NCBI RefSeq assembly: GCF_000767615.3
Contig: NZ_CP009553.3
Coordinates: 3,224,001-3,288,000 of the forward strand
Source: Pandoraea pnomenusa
Lineage (GTDB): Bacteria > Pseudomonadota > Gammaproteobacteria > Burkholderiales > Burkholderiaceae
Length of the DNA stretch: 64,000 nucleotides
Reading direction: 5' to 3'
Position 1 is the stretch's first letter. Every line of letters begins with the position of its first letter. The position numbers and the translations under genes were made by a program. Positions 24,745 through 64,000 of this stretch are shown here, one piece after another. Below the pieces are notes generated by a model. That model was given only the letters and a program-made list of their open reading frames with translations. It had not been told where the DNA came from and ran no database searches.

Positions 24745-25377
24745 TCACCCAGCGTCGTCACAGGCGTCCGGCTGCCAGACGTAGCGGTTCGTCTCCTTGT
24801 CAAAACAACGGGTAGCCTGAAAGCGAACTGTACAGCCGTTGTCGTAGGTTCGCGTGCAGCCGAGCGCATCGCATCGGGTCTGCATTCGGATCACCTGACC
24901 TGTCGGGATCCGGCACTGTGCGGGAGAAGCCTGTGCCGCCGGCGGCGGTGGCAGTCTGCGGCCCGGTCGTTGACCGTTGTCCGCCCACACTTGCGCGTTC
25001 TCCAGCGTGCATTGCCCCGCGCGCTGACACACCACGAAAGCGTCCCCGATTGCCGCCTCCTGCGTGTCGCCGAGCGCCACACCGACCTCGCCATTGGTCG
25101 CTCGCACCACCGCCCAGTAGGCGGGGCCGTTTCCGGCCATCAGAACTTCACATCGCCCTCCCCGGCTCCCCGCCGAGAACTGGGTCCGGCACCGGCTCAA
25201 GGCCGCAACTTTGGCCTTGGCCATGGATGTCTGGTTGGTCACGTACACGAGTCGAAACCCGCCCGACCCGCGTACCCCCGCCACGGCAGACGCCGCAAGG
25301 CCCGACGTGCTGGCCAAGCCCAACAGGCAGGACAGCCACATCGCAAGCATCACGGAAAGATAACGACTTCCATTCAT
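24745..25377 (-). CDS. Secreted cysteine-rich protein of unknown function
   Basis: 210-residue predicted exported protein. The ATG at 25377 gives a clear signal peptide (MNGSRYLSVMLAMWLSCLL, cleavage near GLAASA), so it is preferred over an upstream start at 25467. The mature part has a DUF4189-like stretch (YWAVVRATNGEVGVALGD, then AAIGDAFVVCQRAGQC) and a C-terminal segment with six Cys (CRIP, RCDALGCTRTYDNGC, RCFD) probably paired as disulfides in the periplasm. It is alone between prlC and a phosphoribosyltransferase. The DUF4189 resemblance is by eye only; I propose no function. Confidence 0.75.
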   Translation of the reverse strand: MNGSRYLSVMLAMWLSCLLGLASTSGLAASAVAGVRGSGGFRLVYVTNQTSMAKAKVAALSRCRTQFSAGSRGGRCEVLMAGNGPAYWAVVRATNGEVGVALGDTQEAAIGDAFVVCQRAGQCTLENAQVWADNGQRPGRRLPPPPAAQASPAQCRIPTGQVIRMQTRCDALGCTRTYDNGCTVRFQATRCFDKETNRYVWQPDACDDAG

Positions 25378-25841
25378 CAGGGCGTAACCGCTGGTGCGGG
25401 AGCAACGAAGGCGTGAACCGATGCCCTCATCAAACCACACGACACCGCCTGACGAAGCGCGAAACAAAGGGGATTTTCGGGGGCATTATGGCCCGTCCAG
25501 CGTGGCGGCCATGCGCGCATGGGGCTCATCGGTGTCGCCGCTGCCTTGTCGGGTTGACGCGGCCACCGGCGTTCCGGCCCACTTCCCGGGAGTCTCGATA
25601 GAGAGAGCGATGCAGCGCGATAGCACGTCGCGGGCCGAAGCGCACACCGAAACGGCGATACCGCCTCAAGTCGTCGGATAGCCGCTGCCAAAGCGCCTTC
25701 GGCATGCAAAGTCGCCGAAAAGCCGATATAACACTCCCGCCAAAGAAAAAGGCGGTGCATCTTTCGATATCACCGCCTTCCGGCAGAAGTTCGGCAGTTG
25801 GACGCCCCTGTCAAGGCGCGTCCAGTGCCTGCAAATTTCGC
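25378..25841. other. Intergenic stretch, 464 bases
   Basis: No convincing gene on either strand. It holds the presumed promoter of the Cys-rich gene on the right side of that gene and a terminator at 25742-25779 belonging to the phosphoribosyltransferase/purA unit. Open frames here lack ribosome-binding sites and recognisable domains. Confidence 0.6.
25742..25779 (-). terminator. Intrinsic terminator of the hisZ-purA-PRTase unit
   Basis: On the minus strand the stem AAGGCGGTG/CACCGCCTT with a 12-base loop is followed by TTTTTCTTT. It lies about 65 bases after the phosphoribosyltransferase stop. Confidence 0.85.
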
Positions 25842-54918: not shown

Positions 54919-55644
54919 TCATGTCTCGAACAGGTGACGCGCGCCTCGCTGCGCCGCAATATAAATCGCTTCGCCCCGATTACGCGCGCCAAGCCGCCGG
55001 TAGAGCGCGGACACGTGGGTCTTTGCGGTGCCCTCCGAGATCACCAGTTGCTGGCAAATGGTTTTGATGGACAAACCGCGCGACAGCAGGGCCAGAATTT
55101 CATACTGCCTTTGCGAGATGCCGAGGAGCGCCGACTCGGCCAGTTGCGTCGCCTTGTCGCCGCCGAGCGGAAACACGGGCAGACGCGACAAGGGCAGCGC
55201 CTCGCCCATGGCTTCCTGCCGCCAGAGCACGAGCAGCGCCGATAGCGCATCTTCCGGCACATAGCGCCCGCCGCAGAACGCCAGGTCGAACACCGACCGC
55301 ACGCGCGCGACGGCGCTCGGCCAGGGCAGAAACGCGGTAACACCGCTCTGCAGCCAGTGAATGATTTCATCGGGAAAACCCGTATCGCCGATCACGATGA
55401 CCGGCACAGGCGGCGCGCATTCGCCGGCCATCGAGCACAAGGTGTCGAGAAGCGGGGTGCGAGCGACCGATTCATCGAGTACGAGTGCACGGCGCGAGGG
55501 CAGTTCGCGCAGCCAGATCCAGTCCTGCGTCGCCACGTCATGAACGTGGCGCAGGACCGGTAGTGTCGCGTTGGCGTCGGTTTGCAATGCGACCTGCAGG
55601 CCGCTCAGCCATCTGGCGGCCTCACCCATGACCAGTACACGCAT
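54919..55644 (-). CDS. LuxR-type regulator with degenerate receiver
   Basis: 241-residue regulator. The C-terminal LuxR helix-turn-helix (about 172-232) is intact: ISQRQYEILALLSRGLSIKT, then ISEGTAKTHVSALYRRL. The N-terminal 120 residues fold like a receiver (VLVMGEAAR, VIVIGDTG, WLQSGVTAFL), but the acidic pair after strand 1 is absent, the conserved Lys is replaced (FLPWP), and only Asp57 in LVLDES sits at the phospho-site. It may thus work without phosphorylation. The start at 55644 follows AGGGGA. It is divergent from the secreted-protein gene at 56078, next to the amyloid operon, so it may regulate them; this is inference. Confidence 0.87.
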   Translation of the reverse strand: MRVLVMGEAARWLSGLQVALQTDANATLPVLRHVHDVATQDWIWLRELPSRRALVLDESVARTPLLDTLCSMAGECAPPVPVIVIGDTGFPDEIIHWLQSGVTAFLPWPSAVARVRSVFDLAFCGGRYVPEDALSALLVLWRQEAMGEALPLSRLPVFPLGGDKATQLAESALLGISQRQYEILALLSRGLSIKTICQQLVISEGTAKTHVSALYRRLGARNRGEAIYIAAQRGARHLFET

Positions 55645-56077
55645 GGTTTCCCCTGTATTTCCGGTCGGCACCCCACGCCGCCGCCCCGATTCTGGTGACA
55701 CCCGCCCGCTCGCCTGCGCTTCATCGCGCGGCTGCGCCCCTTTGTCCGCTCGCCACGTATATCCGGCATCCCCGCGCGTTCCGCGCGTGTCGTGGCCGGC
55801 ACGAAAACCGAAGATATCCTCCAGCGTTCGTCGTGATCTGTCCCTCAGGTGTCACTTCGCTTTTGAAGCAGTTTATGCGTGAAATCCGCACGTCGGCGAG
55901 TCCGCCCTCACGGGATCCCGGCCGTTGTTGCCTCTGCGCGACAATCCGCAATGTGCGTAACCTATTTACTCATTTCACCGAGACTCCGCCATTACTTTTT
56001 TCCCTTCCTTTTCTGCAATAGCGCAATAGAATACAAAAAGCCTGACAGGACAGTCAGCGGAAGCCGGGGGGCACGCC
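55645..56077. other. Divergent regulatory region, 433 bases
   Basis: It separates the LuxR-type regulator (minus) from a small secreted-protein gene (plus). The right half is AT-richer than its surroundings (about 55950-56050) and probably holds the promoter of the plus-strand gene. I found no sigma-54 GG-N10-GC element and no gene. Confidence 0.5.
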
Positions 56078-56503
56078 ATGTTCAAATTTTCCGTCGTCTC
56101 GACGCGCAGCGCCATGTTTTGCATGGCTTGCGCGTGCATTGCCAGCAGCGCCCAGGCCGACGTCACCGGCGCAGGCATCCCGAATATCGCCGTGAGCGAC
56201 GCCTTGCTCGCCACCACCCGCGCCGCGAATCTGCAACAGAGTGTCGTTGCCCATCTCCCGGGCGCCACGCCCACCGCGCTCGCACCGGTCAGCTCGACAC
56301 TCACCACCGCCAACAACGTGCGACTCTGGGATGAAGTCATCCCGCCTGCGCCGTCGCCGAAGCCAACACAGGCATCGAGCGCGCCGCAGGGACAACTGCG
56401 CACCACGGTTGCCATCGCCCAGCCGTCGACGCATCCCATCGCGGCCGGTTTGCTGGCAACGAGCTTCACGCTCAACGCCAGCACGGTGCGCGTGGGGCGT
56501 TGA
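56078..56503 (+). CDS. Small secreted protein related to the first amyloid-operon gene
   Basis: 141-residue exported protein, not recognised as a named family. The signal peptide (about residues 1-27) ends SSAQA. The mature part begins around DVTGAGIPNIAVSDALLATTR and contains NNVRLWDEV at 80-87, a Pro/Ser-rich linker, and a C-terminal beta-like stretch (ATSFTLNASTVRVGR). Two motifs, VSDxxL and LWDE, are shared with the 184-residue protein at 62492-63046 that starts the amyloid operon, so the two are probably paralogues bracketing the locus in opposite orientation. The ribosome-binding site is a GGGGGG run about nine bases upstream. Role inferred: accessory fibre or chaperone component. Confidence 0.8.
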   Translation: MFKFSVVSTRSAMFCMACACIASSAQADVTGAGIPNIAVSDALLATTRAANLQQSVVAHLPGATPTALAPVSSTLTTANNVRLWDEVIPPAPSPKPTQASSAPQGQLRTTVAIAQPSTHPIAAGLLATSFTLNASTVRVGR

Positions 56504-56643: not shown

Positions 56644-57975
56644 TCAGAACGTGTACGGGAAACGCACGCCGATCACGTAATTCGGCGCATCCGGCGACAT
56701 GCCGGCGTTCACGTAACCGTTCACCGTCCAGTGCTTGTTGATGGCGTAATTGATGCCGAAGTTGAGCGACGCGGCGTTCGTCGAGCTGCCGGCCACCGTC
56801 GTCCACGGACCGCCCGGCGTGGCGGTCTTCGTCGCACGCGAAATGGCCGTCGAGTACGAGATCGACAGCGCCGTCTTGTCGTTGAGCGCGAGCGCCATGC
56901 CGGCGCCGAGCTGAATGATGTCGCCCAGCTTGACCTTCGCGGGCTGCACCGTACCTTCGATCGTCGAGATGTCGTCGAAGGTGCGCGCCACGTTGTACGT
57001 GTACGCCACGTTCGCGAACAGCACGATCGGATCGTAGGTCCGCAGGAACGACAAGCCGGCCGTGAACGCCCAGATCCCGTTCCCCGTGGGCAGACGCGAC
57101 GGCGTGGTCAGGTTGTTGTTGGACGGGTCGGGCGTGCCGAGCTTGATACCGAACGGCGACGTGCCGGTCGGCGCCGTGACGCGCAACGACGCCACGATGT
57201 CCGGCCAGTTCGCATTCTCCTTGACCAGCTGGTAGTACAGCGACGCGTTCACGTCGCCGATATTCGCCGAGTTCTTGCTGATGTCGCTCACCGACGATGC
57301 CGCGCCGCCCACCCCGCCCGAGATGAAGTCCGAGTTGCGGTACAGGTACGGCACGTCGAACGCCACGCTCATACGGTCGGTGATGCCGTAGCGCGTGTTG
57401 ACGTCGAAGGTCCACACGTTCGCCTTCGTCTGGCCGAGATTGAGCTGGCCGAGGAAGATGGCGTCGAGTGCCAGGAAGCCACTCAGTACGAGTTGACGCC
57501 GATCGTAGTAGCTGTAGCTGATACCGGCGTCGATGGTGAGCTTGCGATCGAACAGCGGCGCGTGCTGCGCCTGCACCACGGCTTCTTCGGCCGGCGTGCG
57601 CTGCGAGTCGGTCTCGCTCTTTTGCATCTGCTGCGTCTCGCCGATGGGCGTGGCCGTCGTGGGGCCCGCGGCCCCGGCCGCGCCACCGCCCGGCGTACCC
57701 GCGGACCCGGCGGCGGAACCGTCGCCGGGCGACACCTGCGCGATCTGCGCGGTGTCCCACGCGGTCAGGCCGCGTCCGCGTTGCGCCATCTCGATGTCGG
57801 TAAGGCGCTGTTTCAGAGAAGAAATTTCCCGCTGCTGCCGGTCGACCATGTCCATCAACATCTGGAGACGGTCATCCGGCGATGGGTTCGTATGCTCCTG
57901 AGCCTGGGCCGATAGCGTGAAAAGCAGTACCCCCAACGGAATAGCGGCAACGGGAAAAAAGCGGTGAGTGTTCAT
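56644..57975 (-). CDS. FapF-like outer-membrane pore of the amyloid system
   Basis: 443-residue outer-membrane protein. The signal peptide ends SAQAQ (about 26). A heptad region (34-65, RLQMLMDMVDRQQREISSLK) predicts a trimeric coiled coil, as in FapF. A Gly/Ala-rich linker (about 84-115) and a short helix follow, then a beta-barrel (about 140-443) with alternating aromatic strands ending YVIGVRFPYTF, the terminal-Phe signal for BAM insertion. In Pseudomonas, FapF exports the fibre subunits through a plugged barrel. The start at 57975 follows a GGGGGGG run. An intrinsic terminator ends 14 bases upstream. The frame extending to 58152 is rejected because MNTHRFF begins a good signal peptide. 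Confidence 0.85.
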   Translation of the reverse strand: MNTHRFFPVAAIPLGVLLFTLSAQAQEHTNPSPDDRLQMLMDMVDRQQREISSLKQRLTDIEMAQRGRGLTAWDTAQIAQVSPGDGSAAGSAGTPGGGAAGAAGPTTATPIGETQQMQKSETDSQRTPAEEAVVQAQHAPLFDRKLTIDAGISYSYYDRRQLVLSGFLALDAIFLGQLNLGQTKANVWTFDVNTRYGITDRMSVAFDVPYLYRNSDFISGGVGGAASSVSDISKNSANIGDVNASLYYQLVKENANWPDIVASLRVTAPTGTSPFGIKLGTPDPSNNNLTTPSRLPTGNGIWAFTAGLSFLRTYDPIVLFANVAYTYNVARTFDDISTIEGTVQPAKVKLGDIIQLGAGMALALNDKTALSISYSTAISRATKTATPGGPWTTVAGSSTNAASLNFGINYAINKHWTVNGYVNAGMSPDAPNYVIGVRFPYTF

Positions 57976-57989
57976 GGTCCCCCCCGGGT

Positions 57990-58011
57990 AAAAAAGCGGA
58001 CGGGCGTCCGC
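57990..58011 (-). terminator. Intrinsic terminator in the leader of the pore gene
   Basis: On the minus strand GCGGAC-GCCC-GTCCGC is followed by TTTTTT, then directly by the G-rich ribosome-binding site of the F-like gene. It lies at the downstream end of a 395-base gap after the E-like gene. The rest of that gap (58012-58370) shows no gene and no second promoter I can defend. Confidence 0.8.
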
Positions 58012-58370
58012 GCGCAATCCAACCAACACGTGATGCCGAAAAACGGTTGTCCTAGCTGCTCGACTGCGGGGTGATGCGTGCGAAACCCACCGCGACACCT
58101 GCTGCGCGCACTGCCCGGGCTCTGCCGACATCACCTTCTTGTTACGCCCCACTTCTTGTTGTCATCGCGTCCGGTGTCGCCCCGTCGCTTCACTGCGTTC
58201 GACGACCGCACCGGCCACTGCTGCCGGCGTCGCGTGGTGCATGCACCACCTCGCGACGCCGTTACGACACCTGCGCTTTGCCTGCACCGCCACCTGCATC
58301 GGCGTCTGGGCGAACCGCATCGACACGGCTCGCCACATCGGTCACCGAATCGGTCACCCCAGCGATCGCT

Positions 58371-59132
58371 TCACCGGCGAATGGCCGCCATGTTGGCAAG
58401 CGCACTCTGCACGCCTGCCTGACGCAGCCCGCCCGATGTGATCGGACTCGACTGGAGGTTCAACTGCAACGTATTCATGACCTGCTGTGCGTTGCCCGCC
58501 ACCTGCACGACCTGCATGATCTGGTTCATGGCCGCACCGGCGCCGCCGCCGATGCTCTGCCCGAGATTGCCGTTGGGCGTATTGAGCGTGACCTGCATGC
58601 CCGCCGACGTAATGGCGACGCTCGCACTCAGGTTGCCCACCGTGGTCTGCGAATGGTTGGCGCCCTGCCCGCTCACCGGTATGAGCGAGGCAATCGACAC
58701 GCCCGGGGCGTACTGGATGATGGCTTTGTTCAATGCGTTGTTCGCGTCGCCGGCCACCTGCGTAATCTGGGCGACGCCGTTGATGAGCACGCTCGCACCG
58801 CCGGAGACAACCTGCGTGACGGGCGTCGTTGCGTTCGCCACGCCCGGCAGGATGCCGGTCGCGGCGCCGGTTTGGACCTGGTAGCCGCCGGCGCCCTGAT
58901 TCACGCCGAGCACGCCGGTGGCCATCAGGCTCGCACCGGTCGGCATCTGCCATTGCGACTGCATGACGAGCTGAAAGCCCGTGATCATGTTCTGTTGAGC
59001 GTATTTGCCGGTCGCGTGCGAGAGCACCTCATCGCTCACGGGCGTCCAGCTCTCGGGCACCACGCTCGACGCGAATGCCGGCACGGCGCTCGCGAACAGC
59101 GGGATGGCCAGCATCGGGACATATCGATTCAT
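58371..59132 (-). CDS. FapE-like secreted repeat protein
   Basis: 253-residue exported protein in the position of fapE (after the peptidase, before the pore). The signal peptide ends PAFAS (about 22). Near the mature N-terminus, VSDEVLSHATGK (32-43) resembles the leader-like motif in the first operon protein. Three Gln/Asn-Ala-Gly segments follow: TGVLGVNQGAG, NGVAQITQVAGDANNALN and NQIMQVVQVAGNAQQVMN, weak versions of the B/C repeats. The spacing to the peptidase gene is 12 bases. Role inferred: minor fibre component, as suggested for FapE; direct homology to FapE was not tested. Confidence 0.75.
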   Translation of the reverse strand: MNRYVPMLAIPLFASAVPAFASSVVPESWTPVSDEVLSHATGKYAQQNMITGFQLVMQSQWQMPTGASLMATGVLGVNQGAGGYQVQTGAATGILPGVANATTPVTQVVSGGASVLINGVAQITQVAGDANNALNKAIIQYAPGVSIASLIPVSGQGANHSQTTVGNLSASVAITSAGMQVTLNTPNGNLGQSIGGGAGAAMNQIMQVVQVAGNAQQVMNTLQLNLQSSPITSGGLRQAGVQSALANMAAIRR

Positions 59133-59144
59133 GATGGTCTGGTC

Positions 59145-59855
59145 TCAAAACAGATCCGCCCGGATGATGCCGAAGTCCACCATCGGGGTCGGTGACGTCC
59201 CGGTCGCCAAGGCGCTGTCGCGTAGCTTGACTGCCAGGGATTCGTTGCCTTTGAGCAGCGGTGAATCCTCCAGAAACGGCTTGCCGATGACCGCCAACAC
59301 CAAGCCATTCCACTGCTTGGCAAAATCGGCCTGCTCGATGATGCGGTTGCCCAGCGCCGGATCCGACACGAACACGCGCCCGTCCTTCGCCGCCTTGATG
59401 ACCACAAAGTGCTGATAACCGTTGACGTCGATGAGCGCGATGACCGGGATCTTCAGGTCGTACAGCGCATTCACGTCCACCTTGAAACCGCGGCCCTCGA
59501 GCCCGAGCGTTTCGACGAACTTCTTCATGTCGAGCATCGAGAAACCATTCTTGATGACGGTCTGCGGATTGGAGAAGACCATCATCTTCTGAATCATTTC
59601 GGCCTCGGGGATATCGATCCCGTAGCCATATCGCAGCAACGTTGCCAGGGCTGCGGACCCACAGCTGAAGTCGTATTCCTGCTGGACCAGATTCACGTAG
59701 TGCATCGACTTGAACGAGCGCATCTTCTTGACCGCCGGTACACCGATCGAAGACTCCAGGTTCACCGATGCATACTGCGCGTGCCCGGCCACGCTTGCGC
59801 ACGCCAGGGCGCAAACAGTAGCGATCCTCACTGCGGCACGACGCGCATCACTCAT
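59145..59855 (-). CDS. FapD-like C39-family cysteine peptidase
   Basis: 236-residue exported peptidase of the C39 (bacteriocin-processing) fold. A signal peptide (about residues 1-27, ending GHAQ) precedes the catalytic set: Gln59, Cys65 in YDFSCGSAALATLL, His149 in GYQHFVVIKA and Asp165 in VFVSDPALG. All are present, so activity is likely. FapD of Pseudomonas is a periplasmic C39-like protein required for fibre secretion; relatives next to pilus-like systems in Acinetobacter are also known. GAGGTG six bases before the ATG lies immediately after an intrinsic terminator. Its substrates may be the leader-like motifs of the neighbouring secreted proteins. Confidence 0.9.
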   Translation of the reverse strand: MSDARRAAVRIATVCALACASVAGHAQYASVNLESSIGVPAVKKMRSFKSMHYVNLVQQEYDFSCGSAALATLLRYGYGIDIPEAEMIQKMMVFSNPQTVIKNGFSMLDMKKFVETLGLEGRGFKVDVNALYDLKIPVIALIDVNGYQHFVVIKAAKDGRVFVSDPALGNRIIEQADFAKQWNGLVLAVIGKPFLEDSPLLKGNESLAVKLRDSALATGTSPTPMVDFGIIRADLF

Positions 59856-59868
59856 GACACACCTCAGG

Positions 59869-59899
59869 AAAAAACCGGTCCGGGGAACCCCGGACCGGT
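59869..59899 (-). terminator. Intrinsic terminator between the C-like and D-like genes
   Basis: A perfect 12-bp stem, ACCGGTCCGGGG/CCCCGGACCGGT, with a 2-base loop is followed on the minus strand by TTTTTT. It begins 9 bases after the C-like stop and ends 13 bases before the peptidase ATG. It should end most transcripts after the fibre-subunit genes. Confidence 0.88.
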
Positions 59900-59907
59900 G
59901 ACCTGCA

Positions 59908-61287
59908 TTACTTGATTGCCGAGATGGCGAGGCTGTTGGCCTGAACGTTGCCGATACCGGCTGCGACGTTCACGCCCACGTTGCCGCTGGCCCACTGCAG
60001 AGCGCCGTTGCCCAGCGATGCGTTGGCGACGAAGTCACCCGAGGCCTTCATGCCTGCGACCTGGTCGGTTTGGGCCGTCGAGTTGGCCGCACCGCCCTTG
60101 AACCAGCCGTTTCCACCTTGCGAGACGGCCGCGGCCAGGCTGTTGCCCTGCACGTTGCCCACACCCGAAGCCACGTTCACGCCGACGTTGCCGGTGGCGC
60201 CGGCAAGCGCTCCGTCGCCCACGCTGGCGTTGACCATGAACTGCGAGATGCTGGCCGAACCCTTGGACGACTGGTTCGCAAACACCTGGGCCGACGCATA
60301 CACCGGCTGGGCGTTGAGCGATGCGATCGCCACGTTGTTGGCCTGGGCGTTGTCGGCACCCGCCGCCACGTTCACACCGACGTTGCCGTTGGCGTTAGCC
60401 AGTGCGTTGGTGCCCAGCGTTGCGCCCATCGTCTGGTATTGCGCCGTGTTGAAGTGGTACGTGAGCGCGCCCTTCGTCCATGCGGTCGACGACATGTAGG
60501 TGTTCGAGAAACCCCACAGCGCACCGGCGGCCATCGAGTCGCTCTCGACGGAGTAGTTGCCGTGGTTCAGCGTGGCGTGGAACGCCGCGTCGAAGCTCTT
60601 CTGCGTGTTCAGGAAGCCTGCAGCAAGGAATCCGGCAGCCTGCTGCGACTGTTGCCCGTAGGCGTAGCCGCCCCATGCCGAACCCTGACCCGCGCCGAAG
60701 TTGCCCACGAGATAGCCGCCATACAGCGCCAGACCGCCCGGCAGCGGGATAATGCCGCCGCCGATGATGCCTCCACCGCCTGCGACGTTCGAGTACTGAT
60801 ACCCGCCGCCCGCGATGAAGCCACCCGAACCGGAGCTCGACTGGCCGGCCACATAACCCGCGCCCGCCTGGAAGGAGTGGCTCGTGTTCAGGTGGCCGTT
60901 GGCCGAAGCGTTCACCCACGACGTGGAGTTGTCGTAGTGCGTGGTGGTCCTGCCTGCGATCATGTACGCGCTACCCTGATCCGTCACCGTCTTGGTCTTC
61001 GAATCGACGCCGTACGTCACATGGCCTGTCACATAGGAACCAAGCAGCGGTCCCGTCAGGTTCACGTGGTGTACGTCGACACGCTGGTTGCTCTGCACGA
61101 CAGCGTTGCCGGTGTTGTCCACCGTCACGCAGCCGCGAATGCCGACCAGACCGAAGATGCCGACCAGGTTCAGTACGTTGGTCTCGTTGCCGATGAACGA
61201 GAAGCTGTATTGCTGGTGATTGGGGGACGCCATGGCGGAACCCGTTGCTACCAGCAGTGCAGCCGCTGCAATTGCTTTCGTTTTCAT
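59908..61287 (-). CDS. FapC-like major amyloid subunit candidate
   Basis: 459-residue exported protein. The second Met (61287, MKTKAIAAAALLVATGSAMA) is chosen because AAGGAG lies six bases upstream of it but directly abuts the first ATG. After the signal peptide come an N-terminal domain with hydrophobic VLNLVGIFGLVGIRG, then a Gly/Ser/Tyr/Ala-rich middle (about 140-230). The C-terminal half holds three repeats of about 35 residues (289-324, 354-388, 423-458) sharing GNVGVNVAxGxxNxQxN, separated by linkers of 29-34 residues. The three-repeat, two-linker plan is that of FapC. Largest secreted protein of the operon, hence probable main fibre subunit; amyloid formation is not shown. Confidence 0.83.
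   Translation of the reverse strand: MKTKAIAAAALLVATGSAMASPNHQQYSFSFIGNETNVLNLVGIFGLVGIRGCVTVDNTGNAVVQSNQRVDVHHVNLTGPLLGSYVTGHVTYGVDSKTKTVTDQGSAYMIAGRTTTHYDNSTSWVNASANGHLNTSHSFQAGAGYVAGQSSSGSGGFIAGGGYQYSNVAGGGGIIGGGIIPLPGGLALYGGYLVGNFGAGQGSAWGGYAYGQQSQQAAGFLAAGFLNTQKSFDAAFHATLNHGNYSVESDSMAAGALWGFSNTYMSSTAWTKGALTYHFNTAQYQTMGATLGTNALANANGNVGVNVAAGADNAQANNVAIASLNAQPVYASAQVFANQSSKGSASISQFMVNASVGDGALAGATGNVGVNVASGVGNVQGNSLAAAVSQGGNGWFKGGAANSTAQTDQVAGMKASGDFVANASLGNGALQWASGNVGVNVAAGIGNVQANSLAISAIK
59914..60423 (-). repeat. Three amyloid-type repeats in the FapC-like gene
   Basis: Three coding repeats of 105-108 bases (60316-60423, 60124-60228, 59914-60021) encode the shared core GNVGVNVAxGxxNxQxN. 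They recur every 65-69 codons, separated by less conserved linkers. Related but weaker cores (VNQxAGxxNxxxN) appear three times in the B-like and E-like proteins. Confidence 0.85.
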
Positions 61288-61317
61288 GACCATCTCCTTG
61301 ACGAGAGAATTACCCAG

Positions 61318-61968
61318 TTAAAAAGATGTGCCCGCCGGGGGACGGAGCACAAAAACATTTGCGGTTACATTGCCTATCCCAGCCGACTGGTTCACTTGCA
61401 CCACACCGCTCGCGCCCCGAAAGGCGTCACCGGAAATCGACGCCGTGCGGAACTGATCGTTGAGGTTGTCGCGCCCAGCCGGGCCACCCTTGGAGATCGC
61501 AGCGGATAGTGCCGTATCCGATACGCTCGCCACTCCAGACGCATCGCCGGTCACAATGACGGTCGCGTTGCGTTGAAGATTGCCGGCACCGCTCGCCTGG
61601 TTGACTTGCGTCAGCCCCGAGGTGCCTGAAAATGCGTTGCCTTGAATTGCTGCGCTGGCCGCGCCGGTCGTGGTCGTGACGAGCGCCTGCTGATTCGTGC
61701 TCGACGCCCCGGCCGTCACACTGCCGCCATTGGCAATCACGGCACTGTTGGCCTGGGCGTTGTTCACGCCCGCCGCCTGATTCACACCCAGCGCGCCGGT
61801 CACGCCGACGGCCGTGCCGTTCTCGACGGTGGCGTGCGTGCCGGCGAGTTCACCGTTCACGAACCACACATCTTCCGCGGCCGATGCACCGGCAAGCGTC
61901 GCCAACATTGCGGCAACCGCCAGATGGACGGCGCGCTGCGCGCCACGCGACCCACGCAGTCCGCTCAT
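61318..61968 (-). CDS. FapB-like secreted three-repeat protein
   Basis: 216-residue exported protein; the signal peptide ends AGASA at residue 30. Three repeats, 46-81, 106-141 and 176-211, share GxxQVNQxAGxxNxxxN (GVNQAAGVNNAQAN, QVNQASGAGNLQRN, QVNQSAGIGNVTAN) with linkers of about 24-34 residues. The repeat plan and its position before the C-like gene fit FapB, the proposed fibre nucleator. Its ATG overlaps the previous stop by four bases, and the C-like gene follows after 30 bases. By repeat chemistry it also resembles curlins, but the rest of the operon is Fap-like. Confidence 0.8.
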   Translation of the reverse strand: MSGLRGSRGAQRAVHLAVAAMLATLAGASAAEDVWFVNGELAGTHATVENGTAVGVTGALGVNQAAGVNNAQANSAVIANGGSVTAGASSTNQQALVTTTTGAASAAIQGNAFSGTSGLTQVNQASGAGNLQRNATVIVTGDASGVASVSDTALSAAISKGGPAGRDNLNDQFRTASISGDAFRGASGVVQVNQSAGIGNVTANVFVLRPPAGTSF

Positions 61969-62486
61969 TTCGTCGCTCCTGCCGCGCCGAGATTGGTCAG
62001 CGGCGAGAGCGCCGAGCTGATCACCGACGGCACGAGCGTGCCGATGCTGCCGATACCGCCTACGCCACCCGAGGCACCCGCGAATCCACCGCCGACACCG
62101 TTGGACGTGTTGAGGCTGTTCCCACCAGGCGCATTGCCCACGAGCACGCCCATCACCGGATTGATGCCGGACTGCACGGCGCCCGTGACGAGACCGGCGT
62201 TGCCGCGGCCCATCAGGTCGCTGTCCGTGACCTGCTTGACAGCGCCCATGGCGGTATTGAACGGCCCGGTCGGGAAAGCCGGAACAGCGATGCCGATCGG
62301 GTTCTCGACGCGCGGCAGGCCTCGATAGGCGATTTGCGGACCGATGTTGCGCTCGACCACGATATCGCCCGGGGTCGCCGGTTCCGCACTCGCCTGACCC
62401 GCGAGCAGCACCGGCGTCAGCACCACGACCATCGTGGCGAGCGCTCGTGCGGCGTGCGCGACAGGAAGAAAATGGGTCTGGGTCAT
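61965..62486 (-). CDS. Secreted Gly/Asn-rich operon protein, unrecognised
   Basis: 173-residue exported protein of no family I recognise. The signal peptide ends GQASA (about 34). The mature sequence has a conserved-looking GDIVVERNIGPQIAYRGLP, then VTDSDLMGRGNAGL, and a Gly/Ser/Asn-rich C-terminal half (GGGFAGASGGVGGIGSIG). It lies 5 bases after the first operon gene and overlaps the B-like gene by four bases, so it belongs to the same unit. It occupies, with the preceding gene, the place of fapA, but shows no clear likeness to that chaperone. The start MTQTHFLP at 62486 gives the signal peptide; a frame to 62597 is rejected. Confidence 0.78.
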   Translation of the reverse strand: MTQTHFLPVAHAARALATMVVVLTPVLLAGQASAEPATPGDIVVERNIGPQIAYRGLPRVENPIGIAVPAFPTGPFNTAMGAVKQVTDSDLMGRGNAGLVTGAVQSGINPVMGVLVGNAPGGNSLNTSNGVGGGFAGASGGVGGIGSIGTLVPSVISSALSPLTNLGAAGATK

Positions 62487-62491
62487 GTCGT

Positions 62492-63046
62492 TCACCGCGT
62501 GGTGTAAGTCACACGCGTCACCTGCACGTTGTTCACGCCGTTGGACAGTTGCTGCGGACGCGGCATCGGCGTGACGGCGCCGGGCAGTTCGTCCCACAAC
62601 GTCACACCATTGGCGAGCGCCATGCCTGGTGACTTGACCATCGTGCCGCCCATGTTGCGGCCGCGCTGGTTCCCAAGTTGTTCGTCGTCGACACGGGCGG
62701 CCGCGAGCGGCATTCCCGTAACGGCGGGGGCATTGCTTGCGGCCTCAGCCGATTCGTCATTGGTGGCGGCCACGTCCTGCGCATCGCCTTGCGGCAATTG
62801 CGCGGCAAGCGGCGCCGGGATGGCGACATCGGCGTCGTAAATCGACGCACGCGGCAGTGCCGTGGTCGTGAACGTCGTCGGCACCATCGCGCCCGTGAGC
62901 ATCGCAACCTGCACGAACGGCGAGCGCGACACTTCCTGCGCCTGAGCCTGCGCGGCACACAGACCCAGTGCCACGGCAACCGCGGCGCCCAGAGCGCCTG
63001 CACTTTGCCGTACGCGGACCTGCATTTCGGTAGTGAGAATTCGCAT
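62492..63046 (-). CDS. First gene of the amyloid operon, secreted protein with LWDE motif
   Basis: 184-residue exported protein, unrecognised. AAGGAGG lies eight bases before the ATG. The signal peptide ends AQAQA (about 36). Residues 119-130 (VDDEQLGNQRGR) resemble a C39-type leader motif and are followed by NGVTLWDEL (147-154) and a C-terminal beta-like tail (NNVQVTRVTYTTR). Both motifs recur in the small secreted protein at 56078-56503. It occupies the fapA position behind the sigma-54 promoter, but I cannot show homology to FapA. A chaperone or minor fibre role is inference. Confidence 0.8.
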   Translation of the reverse strand: MRILTTEMQVRVRQSAGALGAAVAVALGLCAAQAQAQEVSRSPFVQVAMLTGAMVPTTFTTTALPRASIYDADVAIPAPLAAQLPQGDAQDVAATNDESAEAASNAPAVTGMPLAAARVDDEQLGNQRGRNMGGTMVKSPGMALANGVTLWDELPGAVTPMPRPQQLSNGVNNVQVTRVTYTTR

Positions 63047-63075: not shown

Positions 63076-63091
63076 AGCGACTTCCGTGCCA
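63076..63091 (-). promoter_or_regulatory. Sigma-54 promoter of the amyloid operon
   Basis: On the minus strand TGGCAC-N5-TCGCT keeps the obligatory GG-N10-GC spacing. The -24 part TGGCACG is a perfect consensus and the -12 part differs at one base (TCGCT for TTGCT). It lies 30 bases upstream of the first operon ATG, giving a leader of about 20 bases that contains the AAGGAGG site. Confidence 0.8.
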
Positions 63092-63765: not shown

Positions 63766-64000
63766 TCAGGCCGGCACGCCCGATTCGTCACCACGCAATC
63801 CGTAGCGGCACATGAGCCGATAGAGGGTGATGCGTGAAATGCCCAACTCTGCGGCCACCTCGGTGAGCCGATGACAATGGCGCAGCAATGCTTGCTCGAT
63901 GGCCGTTCGTTCGGCCTCGGCACGGATTTCCTCGAGCGTGCGCACCTGCGTCGGCACCCACGGCAGCAGGTCGAGATCCTTGGCCGAGATCACGCGACTG
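63766..64000 (-). CDS. Sigma-54-dependent transcriptional activator, C-terminal part
   Basis: The window ends inside this gene; only about the last 78 residues are visible. They match the end of NtrC-type enhancer-binding proteins: a DLDLLPW linker, a helix EEIRAEAERTAIEQALLRH, and a Fis-type helix-turn-helix with EVAAELGISRITLYRLM and a terminal YGL. The AAA+ domain that contacts sigma-54 would lie beyond the edge. Its position directly upstream of a sigma-54 promoter on the same strand makes it the likely activator of the amyloid operon. Confidence 0.85.
   Translation of the reverse strand, partial: SRVISAKDLDLLPWVPTQVRTLEEIRAEAERTAIEQALLRHCHRLTEVAAELGISRITLYRLMCRYGLRGDESGVPA

Follow-up and report, generated by a model that had tools for sequence, protein, structure and literature searches.

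The closest described relative of the locus studied here is the Fap functional-amyloid system of Pseudomonas, fapABCDEF, in which FapB and FapC exit through the FapF barrel and then polymerise. The C39 peptidase of that system, FapD, was reported to act in the periplasm, and its catalytic Cys to be required for FapC secretion, which a Cys to Ala change abolished; FapE alone showed no peptides from its N-terminus (∼70 residues), and the authors called the FapD target unclear and FapE the likeliest substrate (PMC5557850). According to a 2025 review, FapD is thought to process FapE and FapF (PMC12822426). Fap in Burkholderiales, with Pandoraea as a Fap-encoding genus, is also in print (PMC3792158; PMC6173800). 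Here we describe a fap locus in a 64,000-nucleotide stretch of Pandoraea pnomenusa DNA (the window, meaning the whole stretch analyzed, G000:C1:3224001-3288000 of a 5.39-Mb single-contig genome). The locus begins with an additional conserved gene, gene 1, whose product has a double-glycine-leader-like site in common with FapE. From sequence comparisons, we consider it probable that this operon is switched on by a VpsR-type activator with sigma-54 and that FapD cuts both the gene 1 protein and FapE at the leader-like site. The Fap operon as such is of a known kind, and FapE was suspected as a FapD substrate earlier; what we propose as new is the extra gene, as a second substrate, and the exact site common to it and FapE. 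The titles and abstract openings of the papers found in literature searches mention no seventh Fap gene and no such FapE site, a coverage that does not extend to supplements, including the figure cited for FapE GG motifs.

Seven open reading frames (ORFs) on the minus strand span positions 56644-63046, with gene 1 followed by fapA, fapB, fapC, fapD, fapE and fapF (Table 1), and all seven products have a hydrophobic N-terminus that resembles an export signal, as judged by eye. An earlier note on this DNA had proposed seven exported proteins of a Fap-type operon, including a C39 peptidase with Cys65, His149 and Asp165 and a last product ending in Phe. Profile comparisons bear out the Fap assignment. 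Genes 3 to 7 match the NCBIfam models of FapB to FapF, and the C-, D- and F-like proteins also match the solved FapC (FapC profile positions 269-457, E 2.3e-23), solved C39 domains (7n87, E 1.1e-8; 6mpz, E 3.9e-7; 3k8u, E 9.2e-6) and the solved FapF barrel. The three catalytic residues of FapD are invariant in 23 aligned FapD-type sequences, three of them of the sister type described below, and FapF has the C-terminal Phe. The claim that the two leading genes do not look like FapA stands for gene 1, which belongs to a separate conserved family, and falls for gene 2, which is FapA. With a FapF-type barrel, a FapD carrying Cys-His-Asp, FapB and FapC with Fap repeats (three FapC repeats are visible in alignment A6) and the order A-B-C-D-E-F, the locus is, judged by its genes, a complete Fap functional-amyloid operon of the Burkholderia-Pandoraea form. 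All Fap scores in the window are below the NCBIfam equivalog cut-offs (for example, 370 of 700 bits for FapF and 201 of 330 for FapD); such a cut-off is a naming threshold and no defining trait of Fap, and with scores of this kind the expectation that automatic annotation would leave most of these genes unnamed is plausible.

A FapD query recovered 24 loci, 18 of them from Pandoraea (92-97% identity) and six from Halothiobacillus, Guyparkeria or their family (40-45% identity). All 18 other Pandoraea loci keep the order gene 1-fapA-B-C-D-E-F, with gene 8, in opposite orientation, and a LuxR-type gene coming next; thus the seven-gene arrangement is not a matter of chance.

Gene 1 has no Pfam match at E values up to 10, and in NCBIfam, at the same limit, it matches flagellin B alone (E 0.26), which we take as chance. 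Its relatives behave alike: 18 sequences of mixed origin (alignment A4) gave zero Pfam matches at E up to 0.1 and two single-member hits in NCBIfam (0.012 and 0.085). AlphaFold2 predicts a single helix, located in the signal region, and no confident fold, with a mean predicted local distance difference test score (pLDDT) of 46.7. The family is marked by an LWDE box, which is invariant in 19 Pandoraea copies, in the 18 A4 sequences and in five copies from outside Burkholderiaceae, those five having been chosen partly by the box. It could be argued that gene 1 encodes a FapA chaperone that was duplicated or has diverged, given that it adjoins fapA and that its low pLDDT is in line with disorder. 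The true FapA follows gene 1, however, and gene 1 has zero matches to FapA models at E up to 10, grounds on which we rejected a FapA variant; it also has invariant boxes of its own, and we give a FapA duplicate next to no credence. By these comparisons gene 1 is, rather, a conserved extra Fap gene that forms a separate family.

To follow the spread of this family, 249 Burkholderiaceae genomes were searched with FapF and gene 1 family profiles. FapF was found at 331 bits or better in 79 of the 249, and the gene 1 family (E 1e-20 or better) occurs in 69 of these 79, always on the contig that carries FapF and no farther than 5.5 kb from it. Counting two partial FapF matches that accompany gene 1 (G228, 188 bits; G037, 141 bits), there are 81 FapF genomes; excluding both gives 69 of 79. 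The partial FapF of G037 lies just 919 bases from a partial gene 1, probably in a broken operon. The ten FapF genomes that lack gene 1 are confined to three genera (g3, g5 and g24), and on reading four loci of such genomes (L058-L061) we saw no LWDE ORF. A single gene 1 at the 1e-20 threshold stands in a genome without FapF (G201), and it contains a stop; family matches weaker than E about 1e-6 were mostly left aside. In five other genera, the 16 loci that we read (L062-L077) all have gene 1 directly ahead of fapA. The window carries, in addition, a diverged gene 1 paralogue, gene 8, past fapF on the opposite strand (probability 94.4%, E 9e-8 in a profile comparison with gene 1).

The family appears to reach beyond Burkholderiaceae. 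In a class-wide sample of 369 genomes, FapE was present in 16, one being the genome of the window (G000), and we read the loci of the other 15. In five of these 15 genomes, which belong to other families, the fap operon encodes a short exported protein built like that of gene 1. Its gene is flanked by the VpsR-type activator gene on one side and by fapA or fapB on the other in L139, L143, L146 and L147; in L138 it stands just ahead of fapB, behind a fapC-like gene. These five genes were first found by position, site and box and then backed by profile comparison, in which their joint profile matched that of gene 1 with a probability of 97.3% and an E value of 2.1e-11 (1e-11 against Pandoraea alone). 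A gene 1 profile search of the 15 genomes gave weak matches in G388 (E 0.006) and G403 (E 0.35), with matches of similar strength in genomes without an LWDE gene, and missed the LWDE genes of G489, G380 and G589 entirely. As single-profile searches are thus weak or blank, the distant assignment rests on profile comparison, position and common boxes. No LWDE ORF was seen in three Pseudomonadaceae loci (L135-L137) or in an Aeromonas locus (L125).

Double-glycine leaders follow the consensus LSxxELxxIxGG, and the residue just before a C39 cut is usually small (G, A or S). The site common to gene 1 and FapE has the spacing of C39 substrates, with a hydrophobic residue at −12, Leu at −7 and Gly at −2. 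In FapE it comes soon after the signal region and is close to [IV]E-L-[STK]-D-x-E-L-A-x-[LM]-R-G-[RK], then [YF]. It is present in all 37 FapE places outside Burkholderiaceae (16 from the class sample, 20 from Pseudomonadaceae and one from Aeromonas). The rule used there demanded L/M at −7, R at −3, G at −2 and K/R/G at −1 within the first 130 residues, so that those columns were fixed by the rule and the others free; it found 36 of the 37, and in the remaining one (L101, the same place as L152), whose ORF is over-extended, the site lies at residue 118. By a looser rule (a score above 5 bits, or hydrophobic at −12, L/M/I at −7 and G at −2), the site is found in 39 of 39 Burkholderiaceae FapE sequences as well.

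This conservation extends to gene 1. A position-specific scoring matrix (PSSM) was built from 32 unique FapE windows, with no Burkholderiaceae and no gene 1 sequence among them, and run over the 377 six-frame ORFs of the window. Gene 1 ranked first (14.7 bits), followed by FapE (12.2 bits) and an 85-residue ORF at 25148-25405 (10.9 bits). The best-scoring stretch coincides with the aligned site in all 18 A4 rows and in all 19 gene 1 rows of alignment A1, and shuffled versions of four gene 1 proteins matched the real score in 0, 3, 0 and 1 of 2000 cases. In a comparison of profiles, gene 1 and FapE aligned over the site stretch only (26 columns, probability 50.7%, E 1.6e-4), while the FapC and FapD profiles gave nothing (0.1% and 0.7%). 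The Pandoraea copies point to constraint: the ratio of nonsynonymous to synonymous substitution rates (dN/dS) is 0.040 in the 20-residue site region, compared with 0.388 in the middle region and 0.187 from the box to the end (19 copies, 171 non-independent pairs).

Members of the gene 1 family are also found as orphans in Burkholderia-type genomes (L154-L167 and L169-L185; 25 in g11, four in g20 and two in g10), and these permit a comparison under one rule for linked and orphan copies: hydrophobic at −12, L/M/I at −7 and G at −2, at most 45 residues ahead of LWDE. Of the 42 fap-linked copies compared, 41 have the site, vs. 2 of 31 orphans. The sole linked exception, L146, has A at −2; of the two orphan positives, one is a chance match four residues from the box (L161) and the other the decaying G201 copy (L163). 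In Pandoraea the rule also picks one or two extra chance windows near the box. The orphans L154-L165 were selected for containing LWDE, and one orphan place of 32 (L168) was left out, having a stop in the match and no ORF; L065, in which the site is visible, stands outside A4 and the 42-copy count. Thirty of the 31 orphans come from genomes without fap, and the other (L162) belongs to G205, where a full fap operon containing a copy with the site (L074) is present as well. A FapD-type soluble C39 peptidase is absent from 34 of the 35 orphan-type genomes that were searched, a set that covers the 30 sources of all orphans except L162; G118 has a sister-type soluble C39 peptidase, and nine others have a C39 domain only within ORFs of ∼1030 residues.

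This co-loss with fap bears on the possibility that gene 1 mainly serves another VpsR-controlled envelope or matrix function and is merely carried with fap, FapD processing being secondary. A VpsR-type gene next to an intact LWDE box gene is retained in each of the 31 orphans, and among 13 orphans, chosen from the 31 as close relatives, dN/dS is 0.270 from the box to the end (78 pairs), as a function outside Fap would have it. In the region that lies at the same distance from the box as the site does in linked copies, these 13 orphans give 0.436. Against it, the site is kept with fap and mostly lost without it, and FapB-like remnants, mostly weak hits, stand beside some orphans (L158, L166, L171, L175 and L177), which suggests relics. 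We regard a mainly separate function as unlikely.

Further information on the site comes from six Burkholderiaceae sister loci (L126-L131), which pair a FapD-like peptidase with a FapF-like barrel that is more distant and in which no FapB or FapC genes were detected. In all six, the gene between peptidase and barrel carries the site with a true GG (five by scan, the sixth, L128, by reading), as is expected if the G[RK] of FapE occupies the GG position of other C39 substrates. The barrels of these loci carry the site as RG[GAT], scoring 2.3 to 11.4 bits: L128 and L130 have RGG, and the remaining four have RGA or RGT. Similar leader-like sites are found inside the FapF of L058, L059, L139 and L140. 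These FapF sites would fit an additional FapD cut in FapF. Taken further, with the sister barrels and with FapF among the FapD targets considered in the literature (PMC5557850; PMC12822426), they might mean that the FapF linker is the real target and that the FapE and gene 1 sites are used by another protease or unused. The FapF of the window, however, has only a weak, out-of-register PSSM match (3.5 bits), and the site occurs in 76 of 76 FapE sequences; we judge FapF as the sole real target to be very improbable.

Several observations weigh against FapD cutting at the common site in gene 1 and FapE. Each of the 32 FapE training windows has R or K just ahead of the predicted cut, and the gene 1 of the window has R; G stands there in seven and T in two of the 18 A4 rows, and G in the six sister loci. 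The scores of seven of the 18 gene 1 relatives are as low as 3.6 to 6.5 bits, when the 90th percentile of 1463 locus ORFs, FapE and gene 1 among them, is 4.0 bits, and the profile match between gene 1 and FapE is modest. The site losses in orphans, counted without a tree, may go back to few events, and the persistence of gene 1 relatives without fap in many Burkholderia-type genomes may mean that part of the role lies elsewhere. Fap without gene 1 in the three Pseudomonadaceae loci and in L058-L061 means that gene 1 is not needed everywhere. Finally, the predicted cut in Pseudomonas FapE falls near residue 40, short of the ∼70 residues for which mass spectrometry gave no peptides, which leaves the published data partly unexplained.

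The unusual R or K ahead of the FapE cut also raises the question of whether FapD binds the site for docking and leaves it uncut, in the manner of some C39-like domains in type 1 secretion, where catalytically inactive C39-like domains exist (PMC5557850). The invariance of Cys65, His149 and Asp165 in the 23 sequences and the loss of secretion in the published Cys to Ala variant of FapD (PMC5557850) both argue for catalysis, and we hold pure docking to be improbable.

On our reading, with FapD cutting at the common site, events would run as follows. All operon products would be exported to the periplasm, as their N-termini indicate, and FapB and FapC would leave through FapF and polymerise as they do in Pseudomonas. 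FapD would cut the gene 1 protein and FapE after the leader-like site, which would remove the N-terminus of FapE and free from gene 1 a C-terminal peptide of ∼54 residues that carries the LWDE box. Our guess, and the least certain step, is that this peptide starts, caps or gates fibre export. More generally, and with somewhat less assurance than for this main reading, we lean toward a view in which Fap and the sister barrel loci would use periplasmic double-glycine maturation by a free C39 peptidase, and in which the LWDE protein would be an overlooked seventh component, cut together with FapE, with a short peptide coupled to fibre export.

The conserved sequence ahead of gene 1 suggests how the operon may be controlled. 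The neighbouring activator gene, which runs past the window, encodes VpsR (Pfam E 1.8e-21), Sigma54_activat (E 7.3e-69) and Fis helix-turn-helix (HTH; E 8.8e-8) domains, and a −24/−12 element stands at −45 in all 19 Pandoraea copies. Of the 42 fap-linked copies, 40 have the element with at most two mismatches to the sigma-54 consensus, and so do 25 of the 31 orphans. The VpsR-type enhancer-binding activator and sigma-54 would thus switch on the operon from one promoter. In the 16 loci L062-L077, a VpsR-type activator gene lies just past fapF in 16 of 16 and another ahead of gene 1 in 15; the window has none past fapF. There, a LuxR-type regulator gene is found at 54919-55701 (minus strand), as in all 18 other Pandoraea loci. 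Between fapC and fapD lies a terminator-like hairpin, kept in 18 of 18 other Pandoraea loci, where its stem has 11-12 matched pairs and its tail is T-rich, and this may make the subunits more abundant than the machinery. In L014 and L016, one stem pair is changed on both sides relative to the usual stem.

Table 1. Features of the fap locus and its surroundings (positions in the window).
Feature	Position	Strand	Basis
VpsR-type sigma-54 activator gene, 3' part; runs past the window (L003:9767-11125)	63766..64000	-	Pfam
Sigma-54-type −24/−12 element TGGCACGGAAGTCGCT, 45 to 30 nucleotides ahead of the gene 1 ATG	63076..63091	-	conserved sequence
Gene 1, exported 184-residue protein at operon head, LWDE family	62492..63046	-	in 18/18 other Pandoraea loci
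Double-glycine-leader-like site VDDEQLGNQRGR, gene 1 residues 119-130, predicted FapD site	62657..62692	-	PSSM rank 1/377
LWDE box of gene 1, residues 150-153	62588..62599	-	alignments
fapA (gene 2)	61965..62486	-	NCBIfam NF058617 E 3.1e-7 (30.8 bits, cut-off 110); NF058556 E 3.4e-5
fapB (gene 3)	61318..61968	-	NCBIfam NF058557 E 1.3e-24; weak match to solved FapC 9nqd E 9.7e-5
fapC (gene 4), long extra N-terminal region ahead of repeats	59908..61293	-	NCBIfam NF058558 E 2.7e-18; alignment A6
Terminator-like hairpin between fapC and fapD	59874..59899	-	sequence
fapD (gene 5), C39 peptidase, export-signal-like N-terminus	59145..59855	-	Pfam PF03412 E 1.1e-26; NCBIfam NF058616 E 2e-59
fapE (gene 6)	58371..59132	-	NCBIfam NF058559 E 5.1e-15
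Leader-like site VSDEVLSHATGK in FapE, residues 32-43	59004..59039	-	PSSM rank 2/377
fapF (gene 7), outer-membrane export barrel; start taken at internal ATG, 57975	56644..57975	-	NCBIfam NF058560 E 1.3e-110; PDB 5o65 E 6.5e-79
Gene 8, diverged gene 1 paralogue, RLWDE box, degenerate site VSDALLATTRAA (3.0 bits)	56078..56503	+	18/18 other Pandoraea loci

FapC of the window has a long N-terminal region ahead of its repeats, and we considered whether this forms a new folded domain. AlphaFold2 gave FapC a mean pLDDT of 40.6, with residues 1-284 mostly below 50, and the corresponding region in other genera is Ser-rich and variable. From the low pLDDT together with the variable, Ser-rich sequence elsewhere, we set the folded domain aside and treat the region as an enlarged version of the variable region already described for FapC (PMC3792158). 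No region of such length is present in L058, L059 or L060, and the FapC ORF of L006 is shorter (393 residues). The protein has a single Cys, in the N-terminal region ahead of the repeats, and ends in ISAIK; it lacks the C-terminal CxxC reported for Pseudomonas FapC (PMC5135000), which we do not count as family-defining.

If our proposals are correct, tests of FapE can be aimed at a defined stretch of 12 residues that every FapE sequence we compared contains, and there is a seventh gene that is invisible to surveys relying on profiles of the six known fap genes. The extra gene and the site it has in common with FapE make the question of FapD's target directly testable. Processing may control when these amyloids leave the cell and would thereby matter for how biofilms form, both in many environmental bacteria and in some opportunistic ones.

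Compared with Pseudomonas fapABCDEF, the locus has the same six genes in the same order, with the barrel, the C39 peptidase and the repeat subunits; it differs in its extra first gene, the paralogue past fapF, the long FapC N-terminal region, the missing FapC CxxC and the sub-cut-off scores. A second point of reference is provided by the C39/double-glycine systems of ATP-binding cassette (ABC) exporters, such as PCAT1, ComA and LahT. FapD resembles their peptidases in its catalytic residues and in its match to solved domains, and the substrates resemble each other in the spacing of the hydrophobic residue, Leu and Gly, judged against the leader consensus. In contrast to those systems, the peptidase and substrates here are predicted to be periplasmic after ordinary export, the operon has no ABC transporter, and the site is internal, with R or K ahead of the cut in FapE. 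The sister-type loci recall the FilB/FilC "putative pilus system" in having a soluble C39 peptidase beside a FapF-like barrel and a GG site in the gene between them, although their matches to FilB/FilC are far below the NCBIfam cut-offs and FapB and FapC genes were not detected there. As to regulation, Vibrio cholerae VpsR reportedly does not depend on RpoN (PMC5552954). BerB ties cyclic di-GMP to RpoN in B. cenocepacia (PMC5552954), and the enhancer-binding activator BrfA controls fapA in P. fluorescens PF07 (PMC13101488). The gene described here is predicted to encode an enhancer-binding activator like these biofilm regulators: its product has VpsR, sigma-54 activator and Fis HTH domains, and it adjoins a conserved −24/−12 element.

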